Source: Natrialba taiwanensis DSM 12281 (GTDB taxonomy: Archaea > Halobacteriota > Halobacteria > Halobacteriales > Natrialbaceae). From it: a DNA stretch of 59,081 nt. Below the pieces are notes generated by a model. It was given only the letters and a program-made list of their open reading frames with translations. It did not search any database and was not told the origin of the DNA. Below are positions 10,901-55,883 of this stretch, piece by piece. How positions within the stretch are numbered: position 1 is the stretch's first letter; the number at the start of each line of letters is the position of its first letter. The stretch lies in NCBI RefSeq assembly GCF_000337595.1, contig NZ_AOIL01000009.1, positions 241,043-300,123 of the forward strand, read 5' to 3'. Position numbers and translations under genes: made by a program.

Positions 10901-11248
10901 ATAGATGCGGAGTTTGAGGTAGTTCTCGAGATTGACCGGCTGATCGTTGTTCGGACCGATTGCTGTAATATCAGTGTCCGCGTTACTTGCGTTGATCAGC
11001 GGCGCGCTCACTACGTTGTGGCTAGCGTCGATCGCCGCCGATCGAAGCTCGGACTGGGCCGCCGTCTCGCTTCGATCCATGACGACCTCGACATCCTGCT
11101 CGATCACCGGGTCCGAACGCTGCTCGAGGGTGGCGACGATGGCGATACTCGAGACGAGCAACAGGACTGCGATCATCGCGAAGGGGATCCGTGCCCGGTC
11201 GTCGTCTGCGATCGATACGGTTCGTCGATTACGGGATCGGCTGGTCAT
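7913..11248 (-). CDS. giant membrane-anchored surface protein of the Tad-like locus
   Basis: This 1111-residue protein has a basic N-terminus, then DDRARIPF and one hydrophobic helix at about residues 23-43, and then a very large acidic domain expected outside the cell. The short charged stretch before the single helix resembles the pilin/TadE-like N-termini of its neighbours. A Ser-Gln repeat near residues 640-660 is encoded by hexanucleotide repeats. Single cysteines occur in YVCMAYQ, TQLCDGG, TVCSPTW and ERECAYP. I believe it matches one of the haloarchaeal DUF728x families (number from memory, not verified), whose members accompany TadA/TadC genes. Its start overlaps the stop of the next gene downstream by ATGA. 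The function is unknown; a structural or tip component of the appendage, or a secreted-complex scaffold, is possible. Confidence 0.7.
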   Translation of the reverse strand: MTSRSRNRRTVSIADDDRARIPFAMIAVLLLVSSIAIVATLEQRSDPVIEQDVEVVMDRSETAAQSELRSAAIDASHNVVSAPLINASNADTDITAIGPNNDQPVNLENYLKLRIYLEAHDRLPAAGQRVGSETASTVSIPPVTADGEDGVSPDEAINAVDLTIGDDSATALEAGLLEVTLHDVEVDAETGGRNLPAETRDLSVTVGSPVMQLNERTSTYESRLNEGFLDAGIDTELESLGQHMAARLYPFAYFKSGWDRMHKTASPESHDFGRVLEPGHTEVLTNHAIFAIQEDVFGTRDPYAQRTLRPGYVCMAYQMGESMSGDGDDSGESGDSSIIDTDEFGMGEVTNETRDNESIDIETQLCDGGAVQQWLFGDQATGELPDMPPLSELIQEGLGEMDVMNEAEEIPIADLSEASYRYYQYQVLHDKTMDVTEFFEDRTDAVVDQVPDEYRDDVEETVDQAGTPDIENDGRSIQRLMEELYEIDIDTSDGNARLSGRTPSAGPPPTTNHSLETFSVDISEVRDSDATHEAFPHPDGTSASSDRTIHELDVDAELELDAIEMWIHDDPANASEYGERRSVTRTETANVSARLGLSIEGQYDFREEGLYDDTFVIQEEPALESDYLHLQLPARDSNTSSTQSQSQSQSQSRSQSENGTGTAGGASALQSTGSLSNETMFNAALIDSVLDVTDGVSYYGSVERDLEQNVDALQSRTTDFGSDSGTTKTGAIESAFEEAVIDDEFDETYELDELVAVTEQYGLETDLSDELNRTHTEFSTWIEDEENAYTVDRTELLDTDANPVSGAIDHVKAVEDEFVYRNLSASGPNDSFETPEEFLTAQVRKAYFDRLYSYLDVVAAQYEGRVGDIEDEVDEMGEPAVGVGDDLLGFVQDVLNADVEYNPESIEGSPVLDDAQYEVAGSPTYLTHENISGTQDPAVRPANATITDVDAETEHAPLTIQSMNRNRWPGLPVIPTPPSMWLLQANTWNTTIRGEYARFEVGATISDPGETGRLTYVREHRPITVELHDGTELELGTNEPIEFESTTEVIVVMPGGVVSSGGIPAVADTDPEHDGQTVCSPTWDQTGPGFDPAEAETTIERECAYPSATGG
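9282..9325. repeat. hexanucleotide repeat tract in the giant protein gene
   Basis: On the plus strand, units such as GATTGA and GACTGA repeat about six times. In the protein this gives an alternating Ser-Gln tract. A change in the number of 6-nt units keeps the frame, so length variation would only alter the linker. Confidence 0.7.
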
Positions 11249-12324
11249 TGATCAGTAACGTGAACGGTCAGGTCGACTGTTTCGATCGAGACGTACTCCT
11301 CGAGATACGGTACTGCTGCGGTTGTGAACTCGTCTTCGTCGGGGTGGGCCGCAAAGAGCCGATCGAGTTCATCGCGAATCGGATCGTCGCGCATATCCTC
11401 GGCAATCGGATCGGCCACGCCGGCCGCAAGCTGTTCGTTTGCAGCGCTAGCGTCGGGGTTGACGCCGGTGATTTCCTCGTCAACAGCCGCCTTGAGATCG
11501 TCTCCGCCGAACGCAAGCGCCAGTTGTCGATAGTCATACACCGTCACCGCGTTCTCGGTCCGCGTCGATTCGAGTGCGTACTGGGTCTCCGCGACCGGAA
11601 ACATCGCCTCGACGATCAGTTCCGCGAGCGTGTCGGCCGTACCGTCGACCCCCGCCGACCCCGCTGCTCGCGCATCGTAAAATGAACTCGCGAGTGCCTC
11701 GTAGTCATCCTGGTCGGCACCGGCCATCCTCGTCGATACCGTGACGGACGTACTCGAGACATCTGCCGTCCGTGGCGGGCGGTCTCCGGCAGTTGCAGTG
11801 CCGCTGATCGAACTGTTCGCGTAGGGTTCCCACGTCGCCACGACGTAGATCGAATCGTCACTCCCGACCAGTTGGCCGCGGATAGCCGCATCGACCGACG
11901 ATTCGACATCGTCTGCGTATGCGAGTGGCTGTTGCCCGTCGTATTCGACGCCGACGAGCGCCGACTCAGCTACCAGCGCACTGGCCGAGTTGTAGGTCGT
12001 CACCCGATACAACTCTGGACTCTCGTCAGGATCGAGTCCGTCCGGGACCTCGAAGTTGTCACTGTCGACCGGTGCGTGACCCGACTCGTTCTCGGCCGTC
12101 ATATCGTAGGTGATCGTGATCGTCGACCCGGAGAGCGTCTGGGAGGCTCGATCGGCGCGCGTCCCGTCGACGGAGTCGTCGTCACTGTGGAGATAGACCC
12201 CGATCATCACCACGCAGGCGCTGATGATCAACAGCGCCAGCGCAACGTCCATCACCGTCGAAATAGCCCGGTCGCGGCTCCGGCCGCCCGCGAGTTCAGC
12301 GGGAGGATCGCGAGTTCGGCTCAC
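11245..12324 (-). CDS. pilin-like membrane-anchored protein (DUF7284-like)
   Basis: This 359-residue protein has a short basic N-terminus, then RDRAISTVMDVALALLIISA, the pattern of archaeal pilins and TadE/TadG-like pseudopilins (a charge, then a hydrophobic helix). A large acidic domain follows. Apparent upstream extension in the same frame (to 12654) is the shadow of the preceding gene. The GTG at 12324 is chosen because it overlaps that gene's TGA (TGGTGAGC). It also overlaps the next gene's start by ATGA. The chain of overlaps indicates one operon. The assignment to a DUF728x family is from memory. It is likely anchored outside the membrane and assembled or exported by the TadA/TadC machinery upstream (inference). 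Confidence 0.65.
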   Translation of the reverse strand: MSRTRDPPAELAGGRSRDRAISTVMDVALALLIISACVVMIGVYLHSDDDSVDGTRADRASQTLSGSTITITYDMTAENESGHAPVDSDNFEVPDGLDPDESPELYRVTTYNSASALVAESALVGVEYDGQQPLAYADDVESSVDAAIRGQLVGSDDSIYVVATWEPYANSSISGTATAGDRPPRTADVSSTSVTVSTRMAGADQDDYEALASSFYDARAAGSAGVDGTADTLAELIVEAMFPVAETQYALESTRTENAVTVYDYRQLALAFGGDDLKAAVDEEITGVNPDASAANEQLAAGVADPIAEDMRDDPIRDELDRLFAAHPDEDEFTTAAVPYLEEYVSIETVDLTVHVTDQ

Positions 12325-12821
12325 CAGACGCTCACCCGAAGCGTGCCGGCGCGAACGTCGGCCTCGTTTTCGACGGCGACCGGGATCGACTGGGTTGCGA
12401 CGGACGCCTCGTCTGGAACGCCCTCCGATTCGACGTAACGTTCGAGTGCAGCGACATCCGCGCGGTCGGTCTCGTCGGGAAATCCGGTCGGAAACGCGCC
12501 CGTCGCGACCGCTCGTTCGCGGTCGCCATCGACCGCGGTCACCTCGACCGCAACCGTTGCGCCGGCCGGAAGCGCCGCGGACGTAACGCGATCCGAAAGC
12601 GGGGTGGCATCGTGGTGAGCGTAGAACACGCCGCCCTCCTCGATGTCGTCCCACACGCGGTCGATCGTCCGGTCGGCCGTCGCCGACTGGCTGGTTCCGG
12701 GGAGCACAGCCTGCATGGAAATCGCGTAGAGGCCGATCCCGATGACGACCACCGAGACCGCAACGATCGCGGCGATCGGTTCGGTCTGGGCTCTCTCCTT
12801 AGACCGCGACGAGCGTAACAT
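12321..12821 (-). CDS. small TadE-like pseudopilin (DUF7285-like)
   Basis: This 166-residue protein has the N-terminus MLRSSRSKERAQTEPIAAIV and one hydrophobic helix to about residue 33. A basic segment, then a Glu at the head of the helix (QTEP), recalls type IV pilins and TadE proteins, in which that Glu helps subunit packing (family knowledge). The remaining 130 residues look like a compact extracytoplasmic beta domain. The ATG at 12821 is chosen; longer in-frame extension reads as Ser/Arg-rich shadow. It overlaps the previous gene by 23 nt and the next by 4 nt. Confidence 0.65.
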   Translation of the reverse strand: MLRSSRSKERAQTEPIAAIVAVSVVVIGIGLYAISMQAVLPGTSQSATADRTIDRVWDDIEEGGVFYAHHDATPLSDRVTSAALPAGATVAVEVTAVDGDRERAVATGAFPTGFPDETDRADVAALERYVESEGVPDEASVATQSIPVAVENEADVRAGTLRVSVW

Positions 12822-13854
12822 AGTAGTTCCCTCCGTCGTTGCGGCCGATCGCCGGGTGCTCGTGGTCGAACTCCATGTCGCGTTCGACCTCGTTCGTCCA
12901 CTCGACAGATCCGTCCGCGTACTCGAGTTCGCCGGACCCCGTCGCCGACGGCAGGTCACCGCTCGGATCGGTCGCCTCGACGGTGAACTCGATGGGATCG
13001 CGAGCCGGTTGGGACGATCTGAGACGGCCGAAATCCCTCGGAAGGGAGATGTCAATCTGACCGTCCGATCGTGGCCTGATAACGGTACTCGCGCTGCCGT
13101 GGTCGGTGGCAGCTAGCTCTGCTGTTTCGTCGAGCGGTTCCGGGTCGGGAACCGCCGGAGTGGGAACGGCATCGGGGAGGATATCGGACAGGCGATACTC
13201 CCCGTCCATATGGACGGTCGCCCGTCTGTCTTCGGGTCCGGTGTATGTAACCTGCATCGCGCCGATGTAGGGTTCCGGATCCCAGATCTGATCGGGAACG
13301 GTGCTGAGTATCGGCTCCCAGTCTTCGGTCACCTCGATCGTCAGTTGCTCCTCGACGGGGTCGAGTTCGTCGACGGCAGCGTCGACCGTGACCTGGCGGG
13401 CGCGAAGGTCGCCGTCGGCTCGGATCGGCCGCCCGGAGTTCTCGTCGAACGCCGATTCGACATCCTGCTGAAATTCGTCGAACGCGTGTCTGTCCCCGTC
13501 TGCAAGCGCCTCAGCGTACTCGTCTTTGAACGCGGCCCCGGCAGACAGATTCTCCAGGCGTTCGTTGCCGCGGACGGGGACGACGACGCCGTAGTCGACG
13601 CTCGCGTGAGAGGTGCCGTGGTCGTTTTCCATCGTGATCGTCCTGCGGTCGATCGTGACGGTCTCGGCGTCGTGCTCGGCAGTGGCACGTGCGGGATACT
13701 CGCTGGTCGTTGCGCCCTCGATCGTGGTCGCCGCTCGCTCGGCGTCGGGCGGTGGGCCGGTCGAGACGCCCAGTGCGAGCCCCGCAAGCGCGACGCTGAC
13801 GATTGCGACTGCGACGTAGACGTACCACGCGTCAGCCGGCGCGTCCAGATCCAT
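12799..13854 (-). CDS. membrane-anchored surface protein (DUF7283-like)
   Basis: This 351-residue protein has one N-terminal helix at about residues 10-32 (YVYVAVAIVSVALAGLALGV), then an acidic domain expected outside the cell and rich in beta strands and conserved-looking segments such as YGVVVPVRGNERLENL. There is no enzyme motif. It begins a run of four overlapping genes and has its own TATA box (TATTTAAA, 22-29 nt upstream), so this sub-operon can be transcribed separately from tadA-tadC. The family number is from memory. It is likely a structural subunit of the same envelope machine. Confidence 0.65.
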   Translation of the reverse strand: MDLDAPADAWYVYVAVAIVSVALAGLALGVSTGPPPDAERAATTIEGATTSEYPARATAEHDAETVTIDRRTITMENDHGTSHASVDYGVVVPVRGNERLENLSAGAAFKDEYAEALADGDRHAFDEFQQDVESAFDENSGRPIRADGDLRARQVTVDAAVDELDPVEEQLTIEVTEDWEPILSTVPDQIWDPEPYIGAMQVTYTGPEDRRATVHMDGEYRLSDILPDAVPTPAVPDPEPLDETAELAATDHGSASTVIRPRSDGQIDISLPRDFGRLRSSQPARDPIEFTVEATDPSGDLPSATGSGELEYADGSVEWTNEVERDMEFDHEHPAIGRNDGGNYYVTLVAV

Positions 13855-13875
13855 ACCGCGTCTGTTTCGGCTTCG

Positions 13876-13883
13876 TATTTAAA
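13876..13883 (-). promoter_or_regulatory. TATA box of the four-gene surface-protein sub-operon
   Basis: TATTTAAA lies 22-29 nt before the ATG at 13854 on the minus strand, within the 100-nt gap after the TadC-like gene. It indicates a leaderless internal promoter. Confidence 0.55.
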
Positions 13884-13954
13884 CTACAGTCGCGGAGCGG
13901 TGGGGCCGAGACGTGAAACGGAGAACGGAATCGTCGGTTGAGGTCCGGCACCCG

Positions 13955-15712
13955 CTACATCGGGCTGACGAGGACGACGTCGATCAGGGCGACGGTCAGG
14001 ACGAACAACAGCATCGACGAGAGCAGCGTTCGACCGACGTGATAGCCGAACAGCGACCGGTCCATGCCGTACCGAAGGGCGTACGAGAGCGGCGTCATGA
14101 TGAACGCGAGCAGGATCAGGTAGACGGCGACGACGACGCCGAGCTGTTCGATCGGCAGCGTACTCGCGTCGGCGAAGCCGTCGACGGTATCGAAGTTCTG
14201 GGCGGTGAGCATATCCGCCATCCCGACCGTCGCCCCGCCGACCATCGGGCCGAAGTACGCCGCGGTGTTGTCAAGCGTGCTCGTGACGCGCACGAGTTCG
14301 CGTTTCGTCTCGGCTTCGACCGTCTCGAGTTCTTCGAGGTGGTCGGCCATCGAGACGATGGCGCGGCCGGCGGGTTTGCCCTCGTCGCCGGCGATGGCGA
14401 GGAGGGCGGCCATGCTGTGTGCGCGCTGGCTCGGAATATCGCGAAGTGCGCCGTAGGGGCCGAGAAACGCCTCCTCGACGCTGGTGTGGAGGCGACGCTG
14501 GACGCCGGCGGCGTGATCGAACACCGCGCCGGTCTCGGCGGGAACGCGGTCGGCCGCGAGGTCGATCGCGGACTCGACGGATTCGCCCTCGGCGACCTGG
14601 CGGCCGACGATGTACAGAGCGTCGGTCAGGTGTTCTTCGACCGCCCGGACGTGATTTCGAAGCGAGAGAACGGGACTGTACACGGCGAGCAGCGCCGTTC
14701 CGAGACCGGTCCCGAGTCCGACGACTTCGGCGAGATACGCCGGGCCGAACGCCCCGACGAGCGCGTAGATGACCCCGCCAACGGCCACCCCCCAACCGGT
14801 GCGCAACCAGAGCCGATCCGGAAGATCGGGATGGCCCCGATCGATCGTCGGCGGCGGAAACGCGACCGGCCGCCGGACGAGCAGCCACAGCGACGCGCCG
14901 AGCAATCCGAGCGGCAATACGATCGTATAGAGGAGTACGAACATCCAGATATTGAGGTTGATGCCGGCCATCGGTGCGACCGGAACGAGGGCGATCAGCG
15001 CCAGCGGAAGCAGGATGCCGAACGCAAAGAGCATCGTCGTCGGTGCCCGAATCGCCGAGGTGAACTCGGCCATCTGGCTCCGCGTGCCGTCGAGAATCGC
15101 GGATAGCGCACGGTCGAGCGTGCGGCCGCGTTCGCCCTCGGGGGCGTCCTGTGCCGTCGCCAGGAGCGTCGACGACCGGCGGAGCGCAGGGAAGTGCGCC
15201 GACCACTCCTCGGCGAACGAGAGCAGGCCGGCGTGGGGCGTCCCTTTCGAGCGGTTGAAGTGCGCCTCGAGACTCCTGGCGAGCGGCCCGGTCCCCGTGT
15301 CGGCGGCGAACCGGATCGAGTTCTCGAGCGACGGCTGGATCTGCATGCGCAAGACGGCCCGGCCGATGAGGTTCGGTGTATCGCCGAGCGCTTCCGTTCG
15401 CCGGAACGCTGCTACCAGGTGCGGCCAGGAGTGGACACCGTGGATCGCCGCGAGCGCGGCGGTAATGACGAACACCGCGATGAAGGGGATCGGAACGTCG
15501 GCGAGCACCAGCGGGAGTGGTACCAACGCACCGAGCAGTCCCGCCCCGTAGCCGGCCCGAACGATCGTCGCGGCGTCGTAGGGGGCGTCGATGAACCGGA
15601 CCGAATCGACGAGTGCGGCACTTGCATCGACATCGTAGGGGTACAGCCGGGCGAGGCCGCGAATGGCGAGGGCCGGGAAGCGGGCCCGATTCGAGCGTGC
15701 CACGACTGTCAC
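13955..15712 (-). CDS. TadC/PilC-like membrane platform protein
   Basis: This 585-residue polytopic protein carries two type II secretion F domains in tandem, roughly residues 60-250 and 330-560, as usual for archaeal FlaJ/PilC-type platform proteins. Conserved-looking segments include GRAVLRMQIQPSLENSIRFA and GRQVAEGESVESAIDLAADR, each followed by long hydrophobic helices. It should sit in the cell membrane as the platform on which the TadA-like ATPase acts. It starts at GTG 15712, which overlaps the ATPase's TGA by 4 nt, so the two are coupled. Function is assigned from family and pairing. Confidence 0.85.
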   Translation of the reverse strand: MTVVARSNRARFPALAIRGLARLYPYDVDASAALVDSVRFIDAPYDAATIVRAGYGAGLLGALVPLPLVLADVPIPFIAVFVITAALAAIHGVHSWPHLVAAFRRTEALGDTPNLIGRAVLRMQIQPSLENSIRFAADTGTGPLARSLEAHFNRSKGTPHAGLLSFAEEWSAHFPALRRSSTLLATAQDAPEGERGRTLDRALSAILDGTRSQMAEFTSAIRAPTTMLFAFGILLPLALIALVPVAPMAGINLNIWMFVLLYTIVLPLGLLGASLWLLVRRPVAFPPPTIDRGHPDLPDRLWLRTGWGVAVGGVIYALVGAFGPAYLAEVVGLGTGLGTALLAVYSPVLSLRNHVRAVEEHLTDALYIVGRQVAEGESVESAIDLAADRVPAETGAVFDHAAGVQRRLHTSVEEAFLGPYGALRDIPSQRAHSMAALLAIAGDEGKPAGRAIVSMADHLEELETVEAETKRELVRVTSTLDNTAAYFGPMVGGATVGMADMLTAQNFDTVDGFADASTLPIEQLGVVVAVYLILLAFIMTPLSYALRYGMDRSLFGYHVGRTLLSSMLLFVLTVALIDVVLVSPM

Positions 15713-17628
15713 CTCCGGTCAGCGTACGCCGCTGCGACTTCGGCCGGCGAGACGCGCCCGTCCGTGGCGAGCGTCGAGAGTAACGCCGTCCGGTCGGCGA
15801 TAGCCGCGCGCACGTCGGCGTAGGCCTCCGTCGGGCCGGCAATCGCATTGACGAACCGGCTCTCACCGCGATCGATGCGGCCAGTCGGTGCTGCTGTGTC
15901 CCCGTCGAGTTCGTAGAGCGGTTCGAACCAGAGATCCTCCCCGGTACCACAGACCTCCTCGATGCGGGCGACGCGACGACTGCGTCCGGTCGGCGTGCGA
16001 TAGGCGTCGACCGTAACGACCAGGTCGGTCGCGCTGAACGACGAAGGTTCGACCTTCAGGTCGGAGACGACGCGTTCGTAGACCTCGGTCGCGCCGTCGC
16101 CGTGGATCGTTCCCAAAACGGCGTTTGCGTTCGCACCGACGCGCATGGCTTCGTAGAGAACCTGCGCCTCCTCGCCGCGGATCTCGCCGACGACCAGCGC
16201 GCCGTCGCCGAGTCGGAGCGCCGTGTGTAACGCATCGGACGGCGTGATCTCCGGCCCGTCTCCGGTCCCGGTCCGAAGCGCCTGCACATCTCGGCCGACC
16301 GTCTGTAGCGGGCTAACCGGGAGTTCCGGCGTGTCTTCGATAATCACCGTCCGGGTATCCGGCGTCACCTCGTAGAGCAGCGTTCCGAGCAGCGTCGTCT
16401 TGCCCGACCCGCGGGTGCCCGCGATCAGCGCCGCTGCGTTCCGCTCGATTGCGGTCGAGAGAAAACCCGCGACCGGAGCCGGCATCGTCCCGTTGGCCAC
16501 GAGACCCGGCAACGTGAACCGGTCGTCGGACTGCTCGCGGAAGGCGAAGCCGATCCCGTCCGCAACCGGATCCGTCACCCCCGCAATTCGCAGTCCACGA
16601 TCGTTCGCCAACGACGCCGTCGCGTCGATCGTCGGCTTCGCACGCGAGAACGCTCGGCCGCTCGTCCGCCTGACCCGCGAGGCGAGCGCCTTCGCCCCCG
16701 TTTCGGTGAGGTGCACGTTCGTCTCCATCGCGACCCCATCGAACTCGATCCGGAGCGGATTCGCCGTGACCGGCGACGTGACGTAGACATCCGTCACCGC
16801 CGGGTCTGCGAACAGATCCTCCAGCACGCCGTAGCCGTCGGTATGCTTCTCCAACACCGCCGTCAACGTCGGATCGACCGGCTCGTCTGAGACGAACTCG
16901 ATCGCCCGCGACGCGGCACGGTCCCCTTCGACCCACCCCTCCGCGATCGCCTCGTACCCGTCGACGACCAGCTCGCGTTCCCCCGGCGACAACGACAGAT
17001 CCAACGCGTCGAGCGAGTACAGCGGCACTCGCTCCGCACGGTCGTAAACACGCGCCGTACTTCCGGTTTCGAGTTCGCGAACGTCGTCGAGACGAGCGGT
17101 CTCCGGGATCGATTGATCGACGTAATAGTACGCGACCGCCAGTCCGAGACGCGGCGAGAACACGTCGGTATAGTCGGAAGCGTCGGCGACGGCGTCTAGC
17201 AGACCGGATTCGATCGCCACGTCGCCGATCTCGTCGACCCGCGTCTCGAGACCTGCCGCTCCCTCGATCGGGTCCCGGGCAACCGCCCGCGCGAGTTCAT
17301 CGTCGCGGTCGCCGAGCAGTTCGACGAAACGGCCTGCGGCACCGAGAAACGCAGTCTCTTCCCGATCGTACCGGTGTTTCAATCCGTCCGTGTGGACGAC
17401 GATCGAAGACGCTTCGCGGGTCGCCAAGCGCTCAACGACGGAGTGCCGGCAGGCGGGCGACGCCGCGAGATTGCCGTTGCAGGCCGAGGCCTCGACCACC
17501 AGCGTTCTATCGTCGAACTCGAGTTCACAGTCGCAGTGACTCCCGGTCGACTCGCCGCCGTACAGTCCGTCGAGGCCGAGCCCCGCGAGCAGGGTCTCGA
17601 CCGAACCGCCGGACGAATCAGATGACAT
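15709..17628 (-). CDS. TadA/PilB-like secretion ATPase
   Basis: This 639-residue protein is the motor of an archaeal type IV pilus-like or Tad-like system. Walker A is GTRGSGKTTL at about residue 405; the Asp box (TVIIEDTPELPV) and VVGEIRGEEAQVLYEAMRVG (Walker B and His-box region) follow. Residues 1-70 carry Cys32, Cys34, Cys50 and Cys60 (HCDC and ACNGNLAASPAC), which could bind a metal; this extension is absent from textbook PilB proteins. The ATG at 17628 has a TATA box about 28 nt upstream that overlaps the preceding gene's stop codon. The stop overlaps the TadC-like gene. It is cytoplasmic, hexameric by analogy. Confidence 0.88.
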   Translation of the reverse strand: MSSDSSGGSVETLLAGLGLDGLYGGESTGSHCDCELEFDDRTLVVEASACNGNLAASPACRHSVVERLATREASSIVVHTDGLKHRYDREETAFLGAAGRFVELLGDRDDELARAVARDPIEGAAGLETRVDEIGDVAIESGLLDAVADASDYTDVFSPRLGLAVAYYYVDQSIPETARLDDVRELETGSTARVYDRAERVPLYSLDALDLSLSPGERELVVDGYEAIAEGWVEGDRAASRAIEFVSDEPVDPTLTAVLEKHTDGYGVLEDLFADPAVTDVYVTSPVTANPLRIEFDGVAMETNVHLTETGAKALASRVRRTSGRAFSRAKPTIDATASLANDRGLRIAGVTDPVADGIGFAFREQSDDRFTLPGLVANGTMPAPVAGFLSTAIERNAAALIAGTRGSGKTTLLGTLLYEVTPDTRTVIIEDTPELPVSPLQTVGRDVQALRTGTGDGPEITPSDALHTALRLGDGALVVGEIRGEEAQVLYEAMRVGANANAVLGTIHGDGATEVYERVVSDLKVEPSSFSATDLVVTVDAYRTPTGRSRRVARIEEVCGTGEDLWFEPLYELDGDTAAPTGRIDRGESRFVNAIAGPTEAYADVRAAIADRTALLSTLATDGRVSPAEVAAAYADRR

Positions 17629-17652
17629 ACCCCACGCTGGACTCGGCTTCCG

Positions 17653-17659
17653 ATTTAAA
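17653..17659 (-). promoter_or_regulatory. TATA box built on a stop codon, before tadA-like gene
   Basis: TTTAAA at 17654-17659 lies 26-31 nt before the ATG at 17628 and contains the TAA stop (17655-17657) of the upstream 154-residue gene. It should give a leaderless internal promoter for the ATPase and platform genes. Confidence 0.55.
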
Positions 17660-18119
17660 CCCGCTCCGTGACGACGAGTGGATCACCCTGCTCGTCGGAA
17701 ACGAGACGGAGACGTAACCGGTGGGTTCCGGCCCCGTCGAATGTCATTCGCGACGCCGTCCGATTCCGAGCGACGAGCCGCACGTCGAGAACCTCCTGAT
17801 TTGTTGTCCCGTCGTCCAGCACATACCGGGCCATACTCGCGTCGACGTCCTCCTCAACCGGTTCGATCTCGACGTGTGAGACGCCCGTCGTCAGCAGTGA
17901 CCGCTCGGGAATCGACACCTCGACGACCCGCTGCGGATCAGGATGGCCGGCAGGCGAAACCTCCTCGTTCGCAGCGAGATCGATCGCCGCAGCCTCGATA
18001 TCCGACATCGCCGTCCGTACCTCCCGTTCGGTCGCCGCCGTTGAACTCTCGGCGAGCGCCAGACCCCCGAGCGCGAGTAGCGACACGGCGAGCAAGACGG
18101 CAAGGACGTATCGAATCAT
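17655..18119 (-). CDS. small membrane-anchored protein (DUF7311-like)
   Basis: This 154-residue protein has an N-terminal hydrophobic helix (IRYVLAVLLAVSLLALGGLA, residues 2-21) that ends in ALAES and could be a signal anchor or cleaved signal. An extracytoplasmic domain of about 130 residues follows, with Arg- and Val-rich beta strands (THRLRLRLVSDEQGDPLVV). It lies directly upstream of the TadA-like ATPase and overlaps the coiled-coil gene by ATGA. I recognise the arrangement as typical of haloarchaeal tad-like loci, but the function is unknown. The family number is from memory. Confidence 0.65.
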   Translation of the reverse strand: MIRYVLAVLLAVSLLALGGLALAESSTAATEREVRTAMSDIEAAAIDLAANEEVSPAGHPDPQRVVEVSIPERSLLTTGVSHVEIEPVEEDVDASMARYVLDDGTTNQEVLDVRLVARNRTASRMTFDGAGTHRLRLRLVSDEQGDPLVVTERV

Positions 18120-18991
18120 GAGAGTCGCGACCGGATCGAGTCGACCAGCCCGGTAGTATCGTCTCCGTTAGGATCGTCATCGGGGGAGTCGTCGGTCACG
18201 GAATTCGGGCGAGTAGCAGTATCAGTCGCCGCAGCAGTACCAGACTCAGCAGCCGTCTCAACGGTCGCGGTATCAGCAGTACCGGTGGTACCATCAGCAG
18301 TCCCCGTCGTAGCGTTCCCGCGGTTCTCACGCCGATCGGTCTCCTCACCAACTGCCAGTTCGACTGCGGTCTGGTTCGCAGATGACGCCGGTCGATCAAT
18401 ACCGTCGTCGACGAGCGACCGCTTCCCGTCGCCGAGAACCGCGGCTGCTGATCGTTCTGGCGACCCGGGAGGCGATTCTCCGACGAGTTGGTTCCCACTT
18501 TCGCCACCATCGCCAGCATCACCACCACCATCACCATCGGCAGCGGTATCGAACCCCTGACCCTCGCCCTCTCCTGCTCGATTCTCGGACCCTGTCTCGC
18601 CGCTGGTTTCCGTCTCGTCGCCGGCCACGGATCCCGCCGTATCGACAGCCGAGTCCTCGCCCGCAAGGAGCCCACCCTCGAGATCGTCGAGTTCAACTTC
18701 GAGCGCCTCGACGCGGCGTTCGAGCCGATCGACCGTCGCAACTGCGGTCGCCGACTGTCGCTCGACCTCGTCGTTGACCGCCTCGACGTTGCCGACGTAC
18801 CCCTCGATCGACTGCACGGCCCCCTCGAGTTCTGCAAGTCGACGTTCGTGCTCCGAAAGCCGCGTTTCCAGGGTCGAAACGGTGTCGGCCAACGAAGCCA
18901 GTTCCGCCAACTCATCGAGTGCAACGTCGCCGTCGACGACGACGCGTTCGACTGCCGCCAGTCGCTGTTCGAGTCGGTCCCGGTCGGTCAT
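18116..18991 (-). CDS. coiled-coil protein of the Tad-like locus
   Basis: In this 291-residue protein residues 1-110 are heptad-like coiled coil (VSTLETRLSEHERRLAELEG; VDRLERRVEALEVELDDLEG). About 160 residues of low-complexity acidic Thr/Ala/Gly sequence follow, and then a short conserved-looking C-terminus (TGLVDSIRSRLS). There is no membrane helix, so it is presumably cytoplasmic. It could link the ATPase to other parts or measure spacing (inference). It overlaps the downstream small anchored gene by 4 nt and follows the tiny membrane ORF by 9 nt, with GGTG as a weak ribosome-binding site before its ATG. Confidence 0.75.
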   Translation of the reverse strand: MTDRDRLEQRLAAVERVVVDGDVALDELAELASLADTVSTLETRLSEHERRLAELEGAVQSIEGYVGNVEAVNDEVERQSATAVATVDRLERRVEALEVELDDLEGGLLAGEDSAVDTAGSVAGDETETSGETGSENRAGEGEGQGFDTAADGDGGGDAGDGGESGNQLVGESPPGSPERSAAAVLGDGKRSLVDDGIDRPASSANQTAVELAVGEETDRRENRGNATTGTADGTTGTADTATVETAAESGTAAATDTATRPNSVTDDSPDDDPNGDDTTGLVDSIRSRLS

Positions 18992-19000
18992 CGCTGCACC

Positions 19001-19147
19001 TCACTGGGACTGGCCGGTCGCAACTGTCTCTGAGACTCGCGCTGTCCCACCGCCTGCAGCCACAACCGCAGCCAGACCCAGACACTCACGGCCAACCCCG
19101 ACCGCGACAACGACCGCGACCACAACCTCGACCTCGATGACACCCAC
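19001..19147 (-). CDS. possible 48-residue membrane protein
   Basis: Between the HerA-like gene and the coiled-coil gene a GTG-started frame encodes 48 residues, nearly all hydrophobic in the first 30 (VIEVEVVVAVVVAVGVG, then LGLAAVVAAGGG), with a polar tail. It fits the gap exactly: 19 nt after the HerA stop and 9 nt before the next start, in the same direction. A second frame over the same DNA (ATG at 19161) is Arg/Ser/Trp-rich and looks like a shadow. The DNA is repetitive (GTCGNN units), so the open frame could be chance. Confidence 0.45.
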   Translation of the reverse strand: MGVIEVEVVVAVVVAVGVGRECLGLAAVVAAGGGTARVSETVATGQSQ

Positions 19148-19166
19148 AACTGTCCCTGCATAGCGA

Positions 19167-20237
19167 TCACTCGCGCTCACCCGCAGTGGCAGCGACAACG
19201 TCTCGCGCCCGCGGACTCCCGCCGCCATGTGGCGTATCCCGAAGCCGGACCTGCGCCGCATGAATCGTCTCCGTCGCATCATCGATGACGACCACCTGCC
19301 CGGGATCGGTCGGCAGCCGATCAGCAAGTGATTCGTTCATATACGTCGGCTGGGCCGCGTTCAAGGCGTCCAGATCCGCCTCGGCCGTCAGCCGATGGGA
19401 GAGCAGGATATCGGACTGAGAAATCGCGGTCTCCGTCACTGAACTCGGGCGCTGCGTTGCGAGGACGAGGCTGACACCGGGGGCGCGCCCACGGGTGAGA
19501 ATCGTGTGCAACGCCGACTCTGCGACGCCGTCGAAGAACGTGTGCGCCTCGTCGATCATGAGCCACGGCAACCGATCGATCGCCTCGTCGATTCGGGCGC
19601 GGTAGAGCGCCTCGGCAACGCCGCGGCAGATCGCGTTCATCGGAGCCGAATCCAGCCCGGAAACATCGAGAATTGTGACCGCAGCGCTTGCGAGTTCAGC
19701 CGCACCGAGCCCGTTGGGGTCGAACACGTCCCACGAGTCCGCGAGCGCGAGATGATTCGTCGCCGCCCGTCTGTCGGTCTTCGGTGCGTCAGCCGTCTCG
19801 ATGTGGTGTTGCATAGCCGCCAGTGACGCCGTCTCCTGGGCCGCCTGCCAGACGAGCCCCCCGGCACCGCTTTCGGGGGACAGCCCGAGCAGCGAACACC
19901 AAGACCGGGGATCGAGAACATCCGCTGTCACCGCCGGCTTTGCAACGATATCCACGGGAACGTCCTCACCATCAGCGGATTCAGCGAGCGTCGAAAAGAC
20001 GCCCATCGGATCGACGATAACAGGTGCAACGCCTTGCACCCGGGCGAGTTCCTCCGCAACGACACCCAGCGTGAACGACTTCCCGTAGCCGCGTTTCCCG
20101 ACGATCAACATTGCGTGTGGCCCATCGAGATCGACGTGCAGTGTCGCCCCCTCGCTTCCATCGAGCGCTCGATACCGCCCAAGATGGCCCGTCTGGTCGG
20201 TCTCAGCGTTTGCACCGCGACCGATAACGAAACTCAT
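19167..20237 (-). CDS. HerA-type ATPase of the Tad-like locus
   Basis: This 356-residue P-loop ATPase is of the HerA/VirB4/FtsK kind. Walker A is GKRGYGKS at residues 47-54, Walker B is LPWLMIDEAH, and the later Arg-rich sensor is VSLVLATQRPSSV. It lacks the long N-terminal HAS-barrel of canonical HerA and is not next to nurA, so a role in the envelope machine is more likely than DNA end resection (inference from context). The ATG at 20237 follows an 18-bp perfect palindrome and a TATA-like GTAAAACTT. It heads the minus-strand run that continues to 7913. Confidence 0.8.
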   Translation of the reverse strand: MSFVIGRGANAETDQTGHLGRYRALDGSEGATLHVDLDGPHAMLIVGKRGYGKSFTLGVVAEELARVQGVAPVIVDPMGVFSTLAESADGEDVPVDIVAKPAVTADVLDPRSWCSLLGLSPESGAGGLVWQAAQETASLAAMQHHIETADAPKTDRRAATNHLALADSWDVFDPNGLGAAELASAAVTILDVSGLDSAPMNAICRGVAEALYRARIDEAIDRLPWLMIDEAHTFFDGVAESALHTILTRGRAPGVSLVLATQRPSSVTETAISQSDILLSHRLTAEADLDALNAAQPTYMNESLADRLPTDPGQVVVIDDATETIHAAQVRLRDTPHGGGSPRARDVVAATAGERE

Positions 20238-20339: not shown

Positions 20340-20852
20340 ATGGGCTCGAAACGCCGCCCACAGCTGAACTCGGTCTCGTCGGGTGATCGTCGTTCGTTTG
20401 CAGATGACGATCGCGCGATCGAGGGACTACCGATTCGGCTCGTGATCGCGCTCGTTATCGGTGTTGTATCGCTAGGGATAATGCTGCAGATACTAGGTGG
20501 TATTGATACGTTTGAAGGAGATACAGAAGTAGATGTAGAGTTTGAAGATGATGTTATAAATCTCGGTAATAACGATGATGGGAACGATTTTACTATTTCT
20601 GTTGTTGATAAAGATGGGAATGACGTTACAGATACAACAATAATCGCAACTGCAGGCGATGCACAAATGGACGGCACGATGGTTGATAGCACGGGAGAAG
20701 ACTCTAATAAAGTGAAATTTACCTTTGCCGATGAAAATCTTCGGCTTCCACCGGATCAAGATACTGGAACTATTGAATTTGAGATACAACCACCATCAGG
20801 GACTAGCTGGGCTGATGAAGAGCCAAACAATGAATTATTAGTAGTCGAATGA
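20340..20852 (+). CDS. pilin-like protein with AT-rich variable domain
   Basis: This 170-residue protein begins with a polar stretch ending in DDRAIEGLPIRLVIALVIGV, a charged head followed by one hydrophobic helix (about residues 34-55), as in haloarchaeal pilin-like proteins. The rest is a small acidic domain. The DNA changes abruptly: the first 150 nt are GC-rich (one 60-nt row has 37 G+C), while the part coding for the outer domain is AT-rich (19 of 60 in the row at 20521), with codons such as ATA, TTA and AAT that neighbours avoid. It is likely a subunit exported or assembled by the adjacent TadA/TadC/HerA system, with its exposed domain replaced by recombination (inference). Confidence 0.7.
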   Translation: MGSKRRPQLNSVSSGDRRSFADDDRAIEGLPIRLVIALVIGVVSLGIMLQILGGIDTFEGDTEVDVEFEDDVINLGNNDDGNDFTISVVDKDGNDVTDTTIIATAGDAQMDGTMVDSTGEDSNKVKFTFADENLRLPPDQDTGTIEFEIQPPSGTSWADEEPNNELLVVE

Positions 20853-22015
20853 GTTTTCGAGAATAAGAAAGAAAACATATAGATATATTCTTAACATTAG
20901 TTCATACATATTCGTACATACTCTGTACATAATCCCAACATAGAAATATTATTATATATGTGGTTAGAATGATACGGCGTGAAAGAATCAACATTACAAG
21001 CATTAGGAAGAGTTCTTGTAGCCTCTCTAGCGATATCTGTTATTGGTATTGCTGGGACAGCAGTTGCAGATGAAGGGGTAGATATTAGAGAATTAGATGG
21101 AAGTGGGACAGAAGAAGAACCGTACGTCATTACGACTGTTGAAGAACTACAATCGATAAATCAAGATCTTGAGGGACACTATATACTTGGGAACGATATC
21201 AATGCTCGTGATACAGATTCATGGAATAGCGGTACAGGGTTCAAACCTGTAGGAGATGGGGATTTTGGAGATCGATCACAGGCTCCCTTTAGTGGCTCGT
21301 TCAACGGTCAGGGACATACGATCTCCGGACTGGTTATTGATAGGCCCGGTGAACACTTTATTGCGCCATTTGGAGTGGTCACAGGTACTGTAGAGAATGT
21401 CCACTTAGAAGATGTTGAAGTGTATGGTACTGAACGCCGAATTGCAGGTTTAGCAGGAGATAATCTCGGAACCATCCAAGATGTGTCTGTAACAGGAACA
21501 GTCGAAGGAGAGGATCTCTGGGTTGGCGGACTCGTTGCGCGTGGCGACGAAGGGGCGATAATTAAACGTTCAATGGCAGATGTTGACGTGAAGGGAGAAG
21601 AAAATGTTGGAGGTTTAGTTGGTGATAATAATGAGCAAACGATAGTTGAATCATATACAACTGGTAATGTCGAAGGTACTGATAGTGTTGGCAGTCTTGT
21701 TGGATGGAAGAAGAATGGTGACGATATTATTCAGTCGTATGCCACTGGGGATGTCTCCGGCGAAGAACGGACTGGTGGAGTGATTGGAGCGCTCGCCGGA
21801 CCGATCAGTGATGGCTATGTAGTAAATACTATCGATGGAAATCCTAGTAAGACAGGGGTAGTATACGGCCTAGAATCCGACGGACATCAACGGCTGGATG
21901 CTGTTGTATCCGATTTCTATTACGAAAAACCCACGAATTACGACGGAACTGGTGAGGGAGATGATGTCGGAACAGGGCTATCTAAAGAAGAAATGACCGG
22001 TGCAGATGCCAGAAC
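20490..22015. other. AT-rich segment spanning two surface-protein genes
   Basis: Rows counted by hand fall to about 30-32% G+C (20521-20580; 21601-21660), against 62-65% at 20341-20400 and 22441-22500. The segment begins inside the pilin-like gene after its membrane helix and ends inside the PGF-CTERM gene before its CARDB-like repeats. Both boundaries fall within coding sequence and keep the frame. Confidence 0.8.
20952..20959 (+). promoter_or_regulatory. TATA box of the PGF-CTERM gene
   Basis: TTATATAT lies 20-27 nt before the GTG at 20979. It supports that start, but the whole surroundings are AT-rich, so the match is weak evidence. Confidence 0.35.
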
Positions 22016-23246
22016 GAATATGGATCTCGACTTCGACAACTTCTGGACTGCGACGGACGAGTATCCAGTCCTCCAGTGGCAGGTTCAAGATGTCGATCTT
22101 CGTGTCTCACAGTCCTCAATTGGCGAGGGAGAAACGACCAGCGTGACCGTTGAACTCATACTGGACGATGGCTCGACTGTCACTGCATCCGAAGTCGCCG
22201 ACTACGACTCTGAAACAGCCGTCGCTTCCGTCTCTGATGGAACGCTCGAGGCGAACTCTGTCGGCCAGACAGAATTGACTGCAACCGTCGCTGGCGAAAG
22301 TGATACGGTGACAGTAGAAGTCCTCGAACCGCCGAACATCGAGTTCAGTGACGCTGAATTCGACACGGAAGCGGCCGTCGAGGGAACCACCGTCGATGCA
22401 ACTGTCACCTACGAGAACACTGGCGGACCTGGTTCAGAAACGGCGACGGTCACGGTCGACGGCGAAACAGTCGCCACAGAGACAGTTCACGTCGATGCCG
22501 ATAGTGAGACGACCGAATCGATCCAGTGGACGGCACAGCGAAACGGAACGGTTGCGGTCGATGGTGAACCAGTCGGAGACCTCTCCATCGTCGCTCCCGA
22601 AGCAATAACGCTCGAGTCGATTTCCCTTCCAGATGAAACAGCACAGGGCAGCGACTACGATATCGAACTCGAGTTCAACAACACGGCGTCGCACCCGGTT
22701 GTGGACACGGTCGAACTCCGCGTGAACGGAGCTGTCGGAACGACGAAAACGGTCGAAATCGGTGCAGGTGAATCAACGGAGACGATCACGTACGCCCACG
22801 ACGAGCAGGGGACCGCGACTCACGTCGTCGACCACCACAGCGACGATGCGACGGGCACGGTAGCCATCATCGCACCCGCCGAGTTCACACTCGACGAACT
22901 CGATGCGCCCGAGACGGTGACGAACGGAGAGAACGGTTCGGTATCCGTGACGGTAACGAATACCGGCGGGGCACCGGACACGCAAGATCTCGACTTGCTC
23001 GTCGATGGTGAACTCGTCGACACGCAGTCGGTGACACTCGACAGCGGCGGTTCGGAGACGCTCGAGTTCACGCCAGCGTTCGACCAGCAGGGAGAGGTCA
23101 CAGTCACGATCGCATCGGCCGACGACGAACTCGAGACGGTGGTTGAGAGTACGGCGGCGGCATCCGACGACGGCTCGCCTGGCTTTGGCGGGGTTGTCGC
23201 GCTGGCTGCGATCGTCCTTGCGGTGGTCGTGATGCGGCGGCACTGA
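20979..23246 (+). CDS. secreted GLUG/CARDB surface protein with PGF-CTERM
   Basis: This 755-residue protein has a signal peptide (about residues 1-30, ending TAVADEG) and then a beta-helix-like region with GLUG-type repeats (GLVGDNNEQTIVESYTTGNV; GSLVGWKKNGDDIIQSYATG). A linker and a Big-2-like segment near residues 375-445 follow, then three CARDB-like beta-sandwich repeats. The C-terminus is SPGFGGVVALAAIVLAVVVM followed by RRH: the PGF motif, one hydrophobic helix and basic residues recognised by archaeosortase A, so the protein should be lipid-anchored to the S-layer (family knowledge). The start is GTG 20979. The first 345 or so residues are AT-rich and the rest is normal GC, so the gene is a mosaic. 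It probably mediates adhesion or cell-cell contact. Confidence 0.82.
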   Translation: MKESTLQALGRVLVASLAISVIGIAGTAVADEGVDIRELDGSGTEEEPYVITTVEELQSINQDLEGHYILGNDINARDTDSWNSGTGFKPVGDGDFGDRSQAPFSGSFNGQGHTISGLVIDRPGEHFIAPFGVVTGTVENVHLEDVEVYGTERRIAGLAGDNLGTIQDVSVTGTVEGEDLWVGGLVARGDEGAIIKRSMADVDVKGEENVGGLVGDNNEQTIVESYTTGNVEGTDSVGSLVGWKKNGDDIIQSYATGDVSGEERTGGVIGALAGPISDGYVVNTIDGNPSKTGVVYGLESDGHQRLDAVVSDFYYEKPTNYDGTGEGDDVGTGLSKEEMTGADARTNMDLDFDNFWTATDEYPVLQWQVQDVDLRVSQSSIGEGETTSVTVELILDDGSTVTASEVADYDSETAVASVSDGTLEANSVGQTELTATVAGESDTVTVEVLEPPNIEFSDAEFDTEAAVEGTTVDATVTYENTGGPGSETATVTVDGETVATETVHVDADSETTESIQWTAQRNGTVAVDGEPVGDLSIVAPEAITLESISLPDETAQGSDYDIELEFNNTASHPVVDTVELRVNGAVGTTKTVEIGAGESTETITYAHDEQGTATHVVDHHSDDATGTVAIIAPAEFTLDELDAPETVTNGENGSVSVTVTNTGGAPDTQDLDLLVDGELVDTQSVTLDSGGSETLEFTPAFDQQGEVTVTIASADDELETVVESTAAASDDGSPGFGGVVALAAIVLAVVVMRRH

Positions 23247-23264: not shown

Positions 23265-23969
23265 TCAGACGGTTGTGGCTCGGTCGGAGAGTCGGTCTGC
23301 AGTCCGTTCGAGTCGGTCGGCAACCGAGTGATAGGCGTCGACGGCCTGTGCGTCGGCGGCGTGATCGCGGACCGGGAGCCAGCGCACCTGTGCGTCGGCG
23401 ACCGCCTGTTGGGTGGCAATAATTGTGACCTCGACACCGAGCGTTCGGCTGATTCTGTCGGCGATTTCGCTGTGAGCATCCCGATCGGCCTTGTTGAGGA
23501 CGAGTGTAGCAATCGGTGTCTGGAGGGAATCGGCGAGGGACGCCGTTCGAAACGCGTCGACCAGTGCTGATTTGGACGGTGTCGTAACGAGGATCGTCAG
23601 ATCGGCACTCCGAAGTTCGATCCCGACATCGCGAGCGAGGCCGGCCGGACAGTCGACAACGACCGTTCCCCACTTCCGTTCGATGCGTTCGAGGATCGCA
23701 TCCAGATTCTCGAGTTCACGCGCGGCGGCGCGAGCCCCGGCGAGGGTGCGCCCACAGGGGAGGATCGTCACTGGTCCGATCGTCTCGATGGCCGCGGTTG
23801 GGTCGACGCGACCGGCGAGGACATCGTGGAGGTCGGGACCGGTCCCTGGCGGGAGGTCGGCAGTCGTGAGATCGGCGTCGACGACGACGGCATCGAGTTC
23901 GCGGGCGAGATTCAGTGCGGTCGTGGATTTGCCGACGCCACCTTTGCCGCCGGCGACGGCGACGATCAT
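23265..23969 (-). CDS. MinD/ParA-like ATPase
   Basis: This 234-residue protein has a deviant Walker A, GGKGGVGKST, at residues 7-16, followed by VVVDADLTTADLPPG and the Walker B-like VVVDCPAGLARDVG. It has the signature Lys of the MinD/ParA class. Such ATPases dimerise on ATP and position membrane or cell-pole structures; in archaea MinD homologues place archaella and chemosensory arrays (established for Haloferax MinD4). Here the Tad-like locus next door suggests a role in placing that machine (inference). The ATG at 23969 overlaps the upstream 131-residue gene by ATGA. Extension beyond 23969 reads as shadow. Confidence 0.82.
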   Translation of the reverse strand: MIVAVAGGKGGVGKSTTALNLARELDAVVVDADLTTADLPPGTGPDLHDVLAGRVDPTAAIETIGPVTILPCGRTLAGARAAARELENLDAILERIERKWGTVVVDCPAGLARDVGIELRSADLTILVTTPSKSALVDAFRTASLADSLQTPIATLVLNKADRDAHSEIADRISRTLGVEVTIIATQQAVADAQVRWLPVRDHAADAQAVDAYHSVADRLERTADRLSDRATTV

Positions 23970-24361
23970 GGGTCTGGAGTAGGATTGGGATTGGTGTTGG
24001 GAGTGCGTTCGAGAATATCGCTCGGCGGACACCATGTATCGAGACCTGCGAGTACTGTTTCGGGTGACCGGATGCGGTCGTCCGTGGAGCGGGTACTCGA
24101 GACGACGGTTACGAGGGGGTCGGTTGGGGTGGCTGGACTCGCAAAGCCGAGTCCCTCGCTTCGGTCGGGCCGGATCGTCGTTTCCCAGCAGTCGCCAGTC
24201 CACCGAGGGTCGGCGACGCCGTTGGGCCGGGGCGGCCAGATCGGTCCGTCGAGGCGGTGTTCGAGTCTGACTGTCTGTGGTGTCGAATGCGTGTTCGTGA
24301 GGACGACTCGGACTGTCGTCACCCCGTTCGTTCTGTCGGCTCTCGCGTCGACCGTAACCAT
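23966..24361 (-). CDS. conserved hypothetical protein next to minD-like gene
   Basis: This 131-residue soluble protein begins MVTVDARADRTNGVTTVRVV and has a beta-sandwich look, with pairs of short Val/Thr strands (LTNTHSTPQTVRLEHRLDG). Trp and Cys occur in PRWTGDCWETT and LDTWCPPSDIL. It ends in an Asn/Pro/Thr tail. I think it belongs to a haloarchaeal DUF that always precedes this MinD homologue, but I cannot name it with certainty. It has its own TATA box made from the upstream stop codon and is coupled by ATGA to the MinD-like gene, so it may be its partner. Confidence 0.7.
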   Translation of the reverse strand: MVTVDARADRTNGVTTVRVVLTNTHSTPQTVRLEHRLDGPIWPPRPNGVADPRWTGDCWETTIRPDRSEGLGFASPATPTDPLVTVVSSTRSTDDRIRSPETVLAGLDTWCPPSDILERTPNTNPNPTPDP

Positions 24362-53858: not shown

Positions 53859-55883
53859 TTACACCGTGAGGATAATGGTACCCGTCTCGTCGACCTCGGC
53901 CGTCGCGTTCGGCGGGACGACCACCGTCGAGTCCATTTGCTCGACGATCGCAGGTCCCTCGAGCGTCGCCCCCGCCCCGAGTGAAGCGCGCTCGTACACG
54001 GCCGTGTCGATGAACTCGCCTGCAGCCTCGAAGTACGCATCTCGGGTCGTTCGCCGGGCCGTATCAGCCTTCCCCGAGTCGATTTCGGGGAACGAGGGTT
54101 TCTCGACAACGCCGCGACCGGTCACGTGCAATCCGTAGACTTCGACCGGTTGGCCCTCGTCAGAGTAGGCGTACGTCTGTTCGTGCTGGCGATGGAAGCG
54201 TTCCCGAATCGTCTCCATGCTTTCGAGCGGGCGCGAGCAGCCGACCTCGAGCGAGCGCCACTGGCCGGTATACCGCATCTTGATCTCGTGATCCATCTGC
54301 ATCTCGCTCTCGTCGATTCCCTCCTCGTCGAGTCGCTCGCGGATTTCGGCCTCCATGTCCGCGAACGCGGTCTCGATATCGTCGACGATATCCGCCGCGG
54401 CGTCGGCGATAAACGTCTGCGAGAGATCGTGTTCGACGTCGACCAGCAGACAGCCGAGCGCCGAATTGATTCCTGGATAGGGCGGGATAATGACCTGTGG
54501 AACGTTCATCTCCCGAGCGACGTGTGCCGCGTGTAACGGTCCCGCACCGCCGAATGCGACGAGTGCGAAATCGCGCGGATCGAAGCCCTTACTCGTCGAA
54601 ACCAGTCGCACGGCGTTACACATGTTCGCGACCGCGATCTGTTCAATCGCCGACGCAGCCTCCGTGAGCTCGAGTCCGAGCGGATCGGCGATGTCGCGCT
54701 GAATAACTTTCCGGGCGGGTTCGGCGGTCGCGTTCATGTCGCCGCCGAGGAACCGATCCGGATCGACCCAGCCGAGGACGACGTTCGCATCGGTCGTCGT
54801 CGGTTTATCTCCACCCCGAAGATAACAAGCCGGTCCTGGATCGGCACCCTGGCTGTTCGGGCCAACCCGAAGCGAGCCACCGTCATCAATCCAGGCAATT
54901 GAGCCACCGCCGGCACCGATCGTTTCGATATCCGTCGATGGGAACATGATCGGATACCCGTACTCGACGGCCCACTCGTCGGTCATCTCGATATCGCCCT
55001 GGTGCGTAAGCGAAACGTCAGCGCTGGTACCGCCCATATCGAACCCGATCGCGTTCTCGAAGCCGCACTGATCGGCAATATACTGGCTCGCGATCGCGCC
55101 CGCTGTCGGGCCCGAGTTTGCGATACGAGCCGCGTAGTAAGCGATGGCCTCAGTCGTCATCACGCCGCCACCCGAATGCATGGCGAGGACATCGCCATCG
55201 TATCCACGCTCATCGAGTTTAGCTTCGAGATCGGTCAGATAGTCGCGGACAACCGGCACCAGCGCTGCGTTGATGACTGTCGTGCTGGTCCGTTCGTGCT
55301 CGAACATCTCCGGCAAAATCTCGTGGGATGTACAAACGAACGCAGCAGGATACTCCGCCGCGACGATTTCCTCGACTCGTTGTTCGTGCTCTCCATTAAC
55401 GTATGCATTGATCAACGAGACAGCAATCGTATCGATACCGCGCTTCTCGAAGATCCGAACGACCTCTCGAACAGTCTCCTCGTCTAGGGGTTCGACGACG
55501 TTTCCCGCATAATCGATACGCTCGGCTACCTCGAGTCGATCCCGCCTCTGTACGTAGGGATCGGCAACGTCCTCGTACGCATCCCAAAGATCCTCTTTCG
55601 TCCCGTCGCGGATTTCGTGTACGTCCCGAAATCCCTCGGTCGTGATCAGGCCAATTCGCGGCAATTCGCGCTCGATAAGCGCGTTTGTCCCGACGGTCGA
55701 TCCGTGCGAGAAGAACTCCAAGTCGCCGATTTCCGTATCTGACTTGGTCAGTCCGTTGATGACTCCGTCAGCGGGATTAGCCGGCGTCGAGGGCGTCTTC
55801 TCGATTTCGACGTCTCCCGTCTCTTCGTCAAAGAGAATGACGTCCGTGAACGTTCCACCGATATCTATGCCAGCGCGTCTCAT
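53859..55883 (-). CDS. hyuA: hydantoinase/oxoprolinase subunit A (HyuA)
   Basis: This 674-residue protein begins MRRAGIDIGGTFTDVILFDE, the actin-like ATPase phosphate-binding loop. It continues with VSLINAYVNGEHEQRVEEIV, AIGFDMGGTSADVSL (second phosphate motif) and LVAFGGAGPLHAAHVAREMN, and ends with the small beta domain EGPAIVEQMDSTVVVPPNAT. It supplies ATP-dependent activation of the ring amide for the HyuB partner. I start it at ATG 55883; the GTG five codons upstream (55898) is the alternative. It is first in the operon; the antiporter 300 nt upstream is on the same strand but separate. Confidence 0.92.
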   Translation of the reverse strand: MRRAGIDIGGTFTDVILFDEETGDVEIEKTPSTPANPADGVINGLTKSDTEIGDLEFFSHGSTVGTNALIERELPRIGLITTEGFRDVHEIRDGTKEDLWDAYEDVADPYVQRRDRLEVAERIDYAGNVVEPLDEETVREVVRIFEKRGIDTIAVSLINAYVNGEHEQRVEEIVAAEYPAAFVCTSHEILPEMFEHERTSTTVINAALVPVVRDYLTDLEAKLDERGYDGDVLAMHSGGGVMTTEAIAYYAARIANSGPTAGAIASQYIADQCGFENAIGFDMGGTSADVSLTHQGDIEMTDEWAVEYGYPIMFPSTDIETIGAGGGSIAWIDDGGSLRVGPNSQGADPGPACYLRGGDKPTTTDANVVLGWVDPDRFLGGDMNATAEPARKVIQRDIADPLGLELTEAASAIEQIAVANMCNAVRLVSTSKGFDPRDFALVAFGGAGPLHAAHVAREMNVPQVIIPPYPGINSALGCLLVDVEHDLSQTFIADAAADIVDDIETAFADMEAEIRERLDEEGIDESEMQMDHEIKMRYTGQWRSLEVGCSRPLESMETIRERFHRQHEQTYAYSDEGQPVEVYGLHVTGRGVVEKPSFPEIDSGKADTARRTTRDAYFEAAGEFIDTAVYERASLGAGATLEGPAIVEQMDSTVVVPPNATAEVDETGTIILTV

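Follow-up and report, generated by a model that had tools for sequence, protein, structure and literature searches.

The locus studied here lies in a Natrialba genome whose closest sampled relative is N. asiatica DSM 12278, within a stretch of 59,081 nucleotides that was analysed as a whole and is called the window throughout. A pilin-like gene and an adhesin gene stand in tandem on the plus strand, and an AT-rich block begins inside the first and ends inside the second. The features are as follows, with coordinates in the window.

13955-15712, minus strand: multi-helix membrane protein in the TadC position, without a Pfam match (TadC from position only)
15709-17628, minus strand: T2SSE-type secretion ATPase, pilus assembly (Pfam)
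17655-18119, minus strand: DUF7311 small membrane or secreted protein (Pfam)
18116-18991, minus strand: DUF7310 coiled-coil protein (Pfam)
19167-20237, minus strand: HerA-like ATPase of the left flank, divergent to the pilin-like gene (Pfam DUF87 and HerA_C)
20340-20852, plus strand: pilin-like gene, with the adhesin gene directly downstream on the same strand
20340-20504, plus strand: left anchor (residues 1-55 of the pilin-like protein), with the N-terminus and the membrane helix
20490-22030: AT-rich exchange block, running from the 3' portion of the pilin-like gene across the gap into the 5' portion of the adhesin gene (GC and GC3 profiles, ortholog changepoints and the collapse of identity in Natronorubrum)
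20505-20849, plus strand: part of the pilin-like protein that is exposed and exchanged, a beta domain (residues 56-170) matching DUF7382 (Pfam PF24107)
20853-20978: intergenic gap between pilin and adhesin, 27% G+C
20979-23246, plus strand: adhesin gene
20979-22028, plus strand: exchanged N-terminal part of the adhesin (residues 1-350), signal peptide and predicted GLUG-type beta-helix
22029-23243, plus strand: right anchor, comprising the conserved adhesin domain, CARDB repeats and PGF-CTERM membrane anchor (Pfam)
23265-24203, minus strand: MinD/ParA-like ATPase of the right flank (Pfam)

An AlphaFold2 model of the pilin-like protein shows a short N-terminus, a single membrane helix (residues 32-54) and then an exposed beta domain with strands at residues 64-169. 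Residues 25-38 are nearly invariant among 14 homologs, and Foldseek searches with the model returned weak Ig-like matches only. The adhesin is predicted to consist of a beta-helix at about residues 38-330, followed by a linker, CARDB-type domains and the PGF-CTERM anchor, and its conservation peaks at residues 360-480. The N-terminal part has an M26_N-like Pfam match under the curated cut-off, and GLUG matches are present in the adhesin orthologs. Foldseek matches of the full adhesin model track the Ig-like stalk domains and are uninformative on the predicted beta-helix, for which no solved-structure match was obtained. Of the hallmarks of an archaeal type IV pilus, the locus has the T2SSE ATPase, a TadC candidate by position only and a pilin-like protein that matches DUF7382 only. 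Membership in the VARTIG group (arCOG07710 Ig-domain protein, Thermococcales) was considered and rejected, Pfam giving GLUG/M26_N-like, CARDB and PGF-CTERM matches instead.

The segment 20490-22015 has 42.7% G+C (39.4% in the pilin part, 27.0% between the genes, 44.1% at the start of the adhesin and 47.5% in the rest), compared with 64-65% in the flanking genes and 59.5% in the C-terminal part of the adhesin. Nowhere else in the 59 kb does G+C stay below 48% over an extended stretch; a second, short dip lies at 55801-56200 (45-47% G+C). A reading made from the sequence alone had put the interior at 30-32% and the exterior at 62-65%, and here the sharp drop stands but its depth was overstated, a value of 30-32% being true only of the gap and what immediately surrounds it. 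The drop is almost wholly one of third codon positions (GC3 of 0.26 in the exposed pilin and 0.12-0.5 at the adhesin start), with positions 1 and 2 nearly flat, which rules out amino acid composition alone, a cause that the same reading had named as a possible refutation of its cassette. At four-fold sites A and T increase together, so the cause is not strand-specific and strand-biased deamination is ruled out. Since the adhesin signal peptide lies within the block, the adhesin gene is AT-rich from its start codon on. Of 146 well-paired orthologs drawn from about 300 kb of the window's contig, none falls below the pilin gene in GC3 or exceeds it in dS (0.78 for the pilin; mean 0.19, sd 0.08). 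In the window a changepoint fit returns P41 (wide interval) on the left and A350 on the right, where a softer shoulder extends to about codon 600. The edges proposed earlier inside the two genes lie close to those fitted in most relatives (below), and both reading frames do run through the block, as had been claimed.

This composition is not peculiar to the window. Many genera of the family have full-length homologs of both proteins in this order beside HerA. Eight genera show the same GC3 valley, its edges almost unchanged, and only where the adhesin directly follows the pilin. Paired changepoints fitted in these relatives fall mostly at pilin codons 50-61 and adhesin codons 332-351, the exceptions being Natrialba with its soft right shoulder, a MAG (L099) with a shallow valley and G024 with a right edge at codon 388. 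The AT-rich block is a conserved feature, as opposed to a single insert received from a low-GC source. In a comparison that excluded most distant-family loci, GC3 of the exposed pilin is 0.26-0.49 where an adhesin lies downstream (one at 0.72, n = 12) and 0.61-0.91 where it does not (n = 30; p = 1.6e-6); all five independent pairs agree, although five pairs cannot reach p 0.05. One distant-family locus (L028) has an exposed-pilin GC3 of 0.39 in surroundings of only 48% G+C, and in genome G027 (L092) the pilin and adhesin genes have moved apart and both have GC3 near 0.70. That GLUG domains are AT-rich in general is ruled out by the other GLUG homologs, 17 of 20 of which have GC3 of 0.57-0.84; two stand at 0.52 and one at 0.26, all three in loci of 48-56% G+C. 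A GLUG-type protein of another genus (L058, G014:C1:507619-508176; GC3 0.26 in a locus of 48% G+C) is possibly another AT-rich surface block. The locus was found in two of the seven sampled genomes of the genus. For the other five (G001 and G003-G006; noted along with window positions 11245-20237), no pilin homolog and only weak HerA relatives were detected, and the whole locus is apparently missing there. In four Natronorubrum loci without an adhesin (L185, L186, L192 and L193) the pilin is followed almost directly by two TrkA-type genes, which makes gain or loss of the adhesin a clean event between pilin and TrkA.

Replacement of the block can be followed between Natronorubrum species. N. 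texcoconense and a second species (G140) are about 0.93 identical on either side of the block and 0.97 identical in the pilin anchor, whereas inside it, from about position +165 of the pilin gene to about codon 345 of the adhesin, identity falls to 0.47-0.71 before returning to about 0.9. The right anchor opens at about codon 345 with at least 68 identical bases in a row, and no other such dip occurs in 18 kb. Synonymous change is saturated in the interior (pS 0.70-0.79), compared with a dS of 0.18-0.24 in the anchors beside the edges and 0.18-0.31 in the flanking genes. Trees of the flanks pair L101 with L129 (99/99) and the tree of the adhesin interior pairs L129 with L130 (100/98), so that the interior places G140 with N. 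halalkaliphilum and not with N. texcoconense. AU tests, for which the clades were named after the trees had been seen, reject the swapped Natronorubrum grouping in both directions (p 0.004 and 0.006). For the exposed pilin part alone the flank grouping is not rejected (AU p 0.19); its tree repeats the odd groupings of the adhesin-interior tree with moderate support (86-95), and these shared pairs are consistent with one block moving as a unit. A further conflict between interior and flank, for L094 and L095, is weak (AU p 0.02; adhesin right part p 0.04).

Comparable signals are seen in other genera. Salinadaptatus and Halopiger djelfimassiliensis join in the interior (100/99), a grouping that the flanks reject (L096 and L097; p 1.5e-4). 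H. djelfimassiliensis also carries two adhesin copies, the second away from the pilus locus (L098, 6909-9320). The two share a nearly identical right anchor and have unrelated exposed domains, with a dS of 0.03 at residues 480-600 and saturation at residues 120-345, and they fall in different interior clades (AU p 0.0006). In the record of the second copy a run of N covers the C-terminal part of the gene. Against N. asiatica, the window has a dS of 0.12-0.17 in the flanking genes (HerA 0.161, MinD-like 0.122), 1.08 in the exposed part of the pilin and 0.32-1.45 in the adhesin up to residue 340, a two- to ninefold excess of synonymous divergence in the block. Adhesin dS remains raised to about residue 540, which points to wider exchange tracts or to older, layered events. 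The most divergent stretch between these two species (55-70% identity) is the gap and adhesin signal-peptide region, window positions 20790-21100 against L091. The edges in this Natrialba pair are soft. In control genera without the adhesin, the exposed pilin of close species pairs is as conserved as the flank (0.90-0.99), and Natronorubrum pilins without an adhesin are intermediate, with an exposed part more divergent than the flank (0.60 vs 0.78). Sampling was of one genome per species; exchange is visible only between species and between two copies within one genome.

Across these comparisons the anchors are fixed, replacement is blockwise at the same edges, and the two exposed domains have similar histories that conflict with those of the flanks. 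As in variable regions of the flagellin type, conserved ends enclose a far more divergent middle and interior and flank histories disagree, the pilin part alone not being significant. We therefore consider it very likely that the block is an allele-exchange cassette of an archaeal pilus-like locus, recombining through conserved anchors such that one tract swaps both exposed domains. The tandem order would make this possible, the pilin-like gene running from anchor to exposed domain and the adhesin gene from exposed domain to anchor. Because the exposed domains stand back to back with the anchors facing outward, one tract ending in the anchors would replace both in frame. The agent would be homologous recombination or gene conversion between cells with ends in the anchor sequences, and the driving cause may be selection by viruses, mating partners or surfaces. 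Two published sources describe polyploidy with gene conversion and cell-fusion mating in haloarchaea (PMC11276520, PMC7838353), and these make such an exchange mechanism plausible. Inverted or shared repeats at the block edges are only short and chance-like, a DNA search of the window's own draft genome returned the locus itself and no second or silent copy, and the pilin had no match among phages or viral contigs; none of these points to another agent. Invertible-segment phase variation was rejected because the edges of the window block have no inverted repeats, and a diversity-generating retroelement because no near-identical template repeat was found and the DNA search gave the locus only. 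Phage or plasmid donors were likewise rejected, the pilin having no viral match and plasmid matches lying below 60% identity.

Several other explanations deserve consideration. AT-richness might be selected for itself, through binding of silencing proteins, weak mRNA structure or DNA opening, and merely coincide with the exchanged block; a position and depth that are constant in eight genera and a very AT-rich intergenic gap would suit this idea, which we nevertheless regard as rather unlikely, as it does not predict the tree conflict, the joint rise of A and T does not hint at a need tied to one strand or motif, and most GLUG genes at other loci are GC-rich. It is improbable that silent copies within one genome feed antigenic variation through gene conversion: such variation could draw on the stand-alone second adhesin of H. 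djelfimassiliensis, with its near-identical right anchor, but the window's genome lacks a second copy and other genomes mostly hold one adhesin copy, these assemblies being drafts. A Neisseria-type pilin system was rejected along the same lines, the window's draft genome being without silent donor copies and a single stand-alone copy being found in H. djelfimassiliensis. Faster mutation or evolution of the block in place, without exchange, would raise dS and dN inside it, as is observed; tree conflicts, the jump of divergence from background to saturation at the edges and the CARDB repeats, which diverge strongly between genera but remain GC-rich, make it very improbable. Finally, a single acquisition of the gene pair from an AT-rich organism with slow drift to host composition would account for low GC3 in both genes and for the patchiness of the locus in the genus (2/7 genomes), but is highly improbable, given that composition changes inside both genes and at matching codons across many genera, that the anchors are part of the same end-to-end proteins, that old alleles past synonymous saturation are stably AT-rich, which contradicts slow amelioration, and that no AT-rich holder was found.

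These results also settle what can be kept of the sequence-only reading. Its stable anchors with exposed domains replaced as a block are borne out by the tree conflicts, the Natronorubrum identity collapse and the Halopiger copies, and its appeal to homologous recombination at conserved ends agrees with replacement tracts that end in conserved sequence, this being the simplest mechanism. It had counted an AT-rich segment shared by relatives at flank-like divergence as fatal to a cassette; relatives do share the segment, but at a divergence far above that of the flanks. The description of the exposed domains as foreign is not supported in the sense of a recent import from a low-GC source: the proteins have homologs along their full length, with gene order kept, in many genera, the AT-rich stretch lies at the same codons in eight of them, and no AT-rich donor was found. 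'Antigenic' is a misnomer as well, since the hosts are free-living archaea in which virus receptors, mating or adhesion types are likelier selective targets.

Why an exchanged block should be AT-rich is less certain. The alleles are synonymously saturated yet AT-rich, and an old import would have taken on host composition, which has not happened. Our leading guess is that AT-richness persists because unpairable alleles escape GC-raising gene conversion and drift to mutational balance. The composition might then be a scar of recombination exclusion in every lineage, with the freely recombining anchors staying GC-rich, a proposal that we advance tentatively, as possible rather than probable. Exclusion fits the GC-rich pilins that are not linked to an adhesin, the partial recovery in G027 and a weak negative correlation between dS and GC3 over other genes (rho -0.35). 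It would give the block a substitution regime of its own; the alternative is that the pool is refilled from AT-rich donors, although none, nor a donor of a recent import, was found in searches that included phages, viral contigs and plasmids.

In bacterial type IV pilin allele replacement (Pseudomonas pilA groups) the exposed pilin part varies with a linked downstream gene; the present block differs in being archaeal and in having another pilin and partner family. Flagellins (PMC7018530), VARTIG (PMC8416519) and Haloquadratum surface genes (PMC4535781, PMC3119063) are known cases in which exposed domains are replaced while the ends on either side are conserved. Flagellin hypervariable regions share the conserved ends, the unrelated, old and maintained middle forms and switching by recombination in the ends, but concern a single gene, and that paper shows no fixed-edge AT-rich block over two genes (PMC7018530). 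The VARTIG modules of Thermococcales are similar in that the exposed domain of an archaeal surface-type protein is replaced between species by recombination while the rest is conserved; there, however, the Ig domain lies at the C-terminus of one gene, downstream genes are variable and edges were not mapped (PMC8416519), whereas here two genes share one block whose edges are sharp and compositionally marked. In Haloquadratum walsbyi islands, surface genes are replaced while their surroundings are conserved, for which recombination and pressure from viruses have been proposed, and HmuI, in the case of the halomucin divergent region, has conserved ends and a divergent middle, but whole genes or large islands are involved and no sub-gene two-gene cassette at a pilus locus (PMC4535781, PMC3119063). 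In the open-licence papers searched, no cassette came up that spans two genes of an archaeal pilus locus and has fixed edges marked by composition, a negative that carries little weight.

An exchanged block whose GC3 stays some 40-50 points below that of its anchors over a long span of divergence poses a clean question, and one that bears on the unsettled matter of whether archaea undergo GC-biased gene conversion. If the recombination-exclusion reading is true, the GC3 edge would show precisely where allele pairing stops and would count as evidence of archaeal GC-biased conversion. Surface typing is poorly understood in archaea, and the exact block edges are usable for experiments. The joint exchange hints that the pilin-like protein and the adhesin may cooperate on the pilus, and the gene layout lets the two surface proteins switch together in one recombination event, giving the cell a new surface type.
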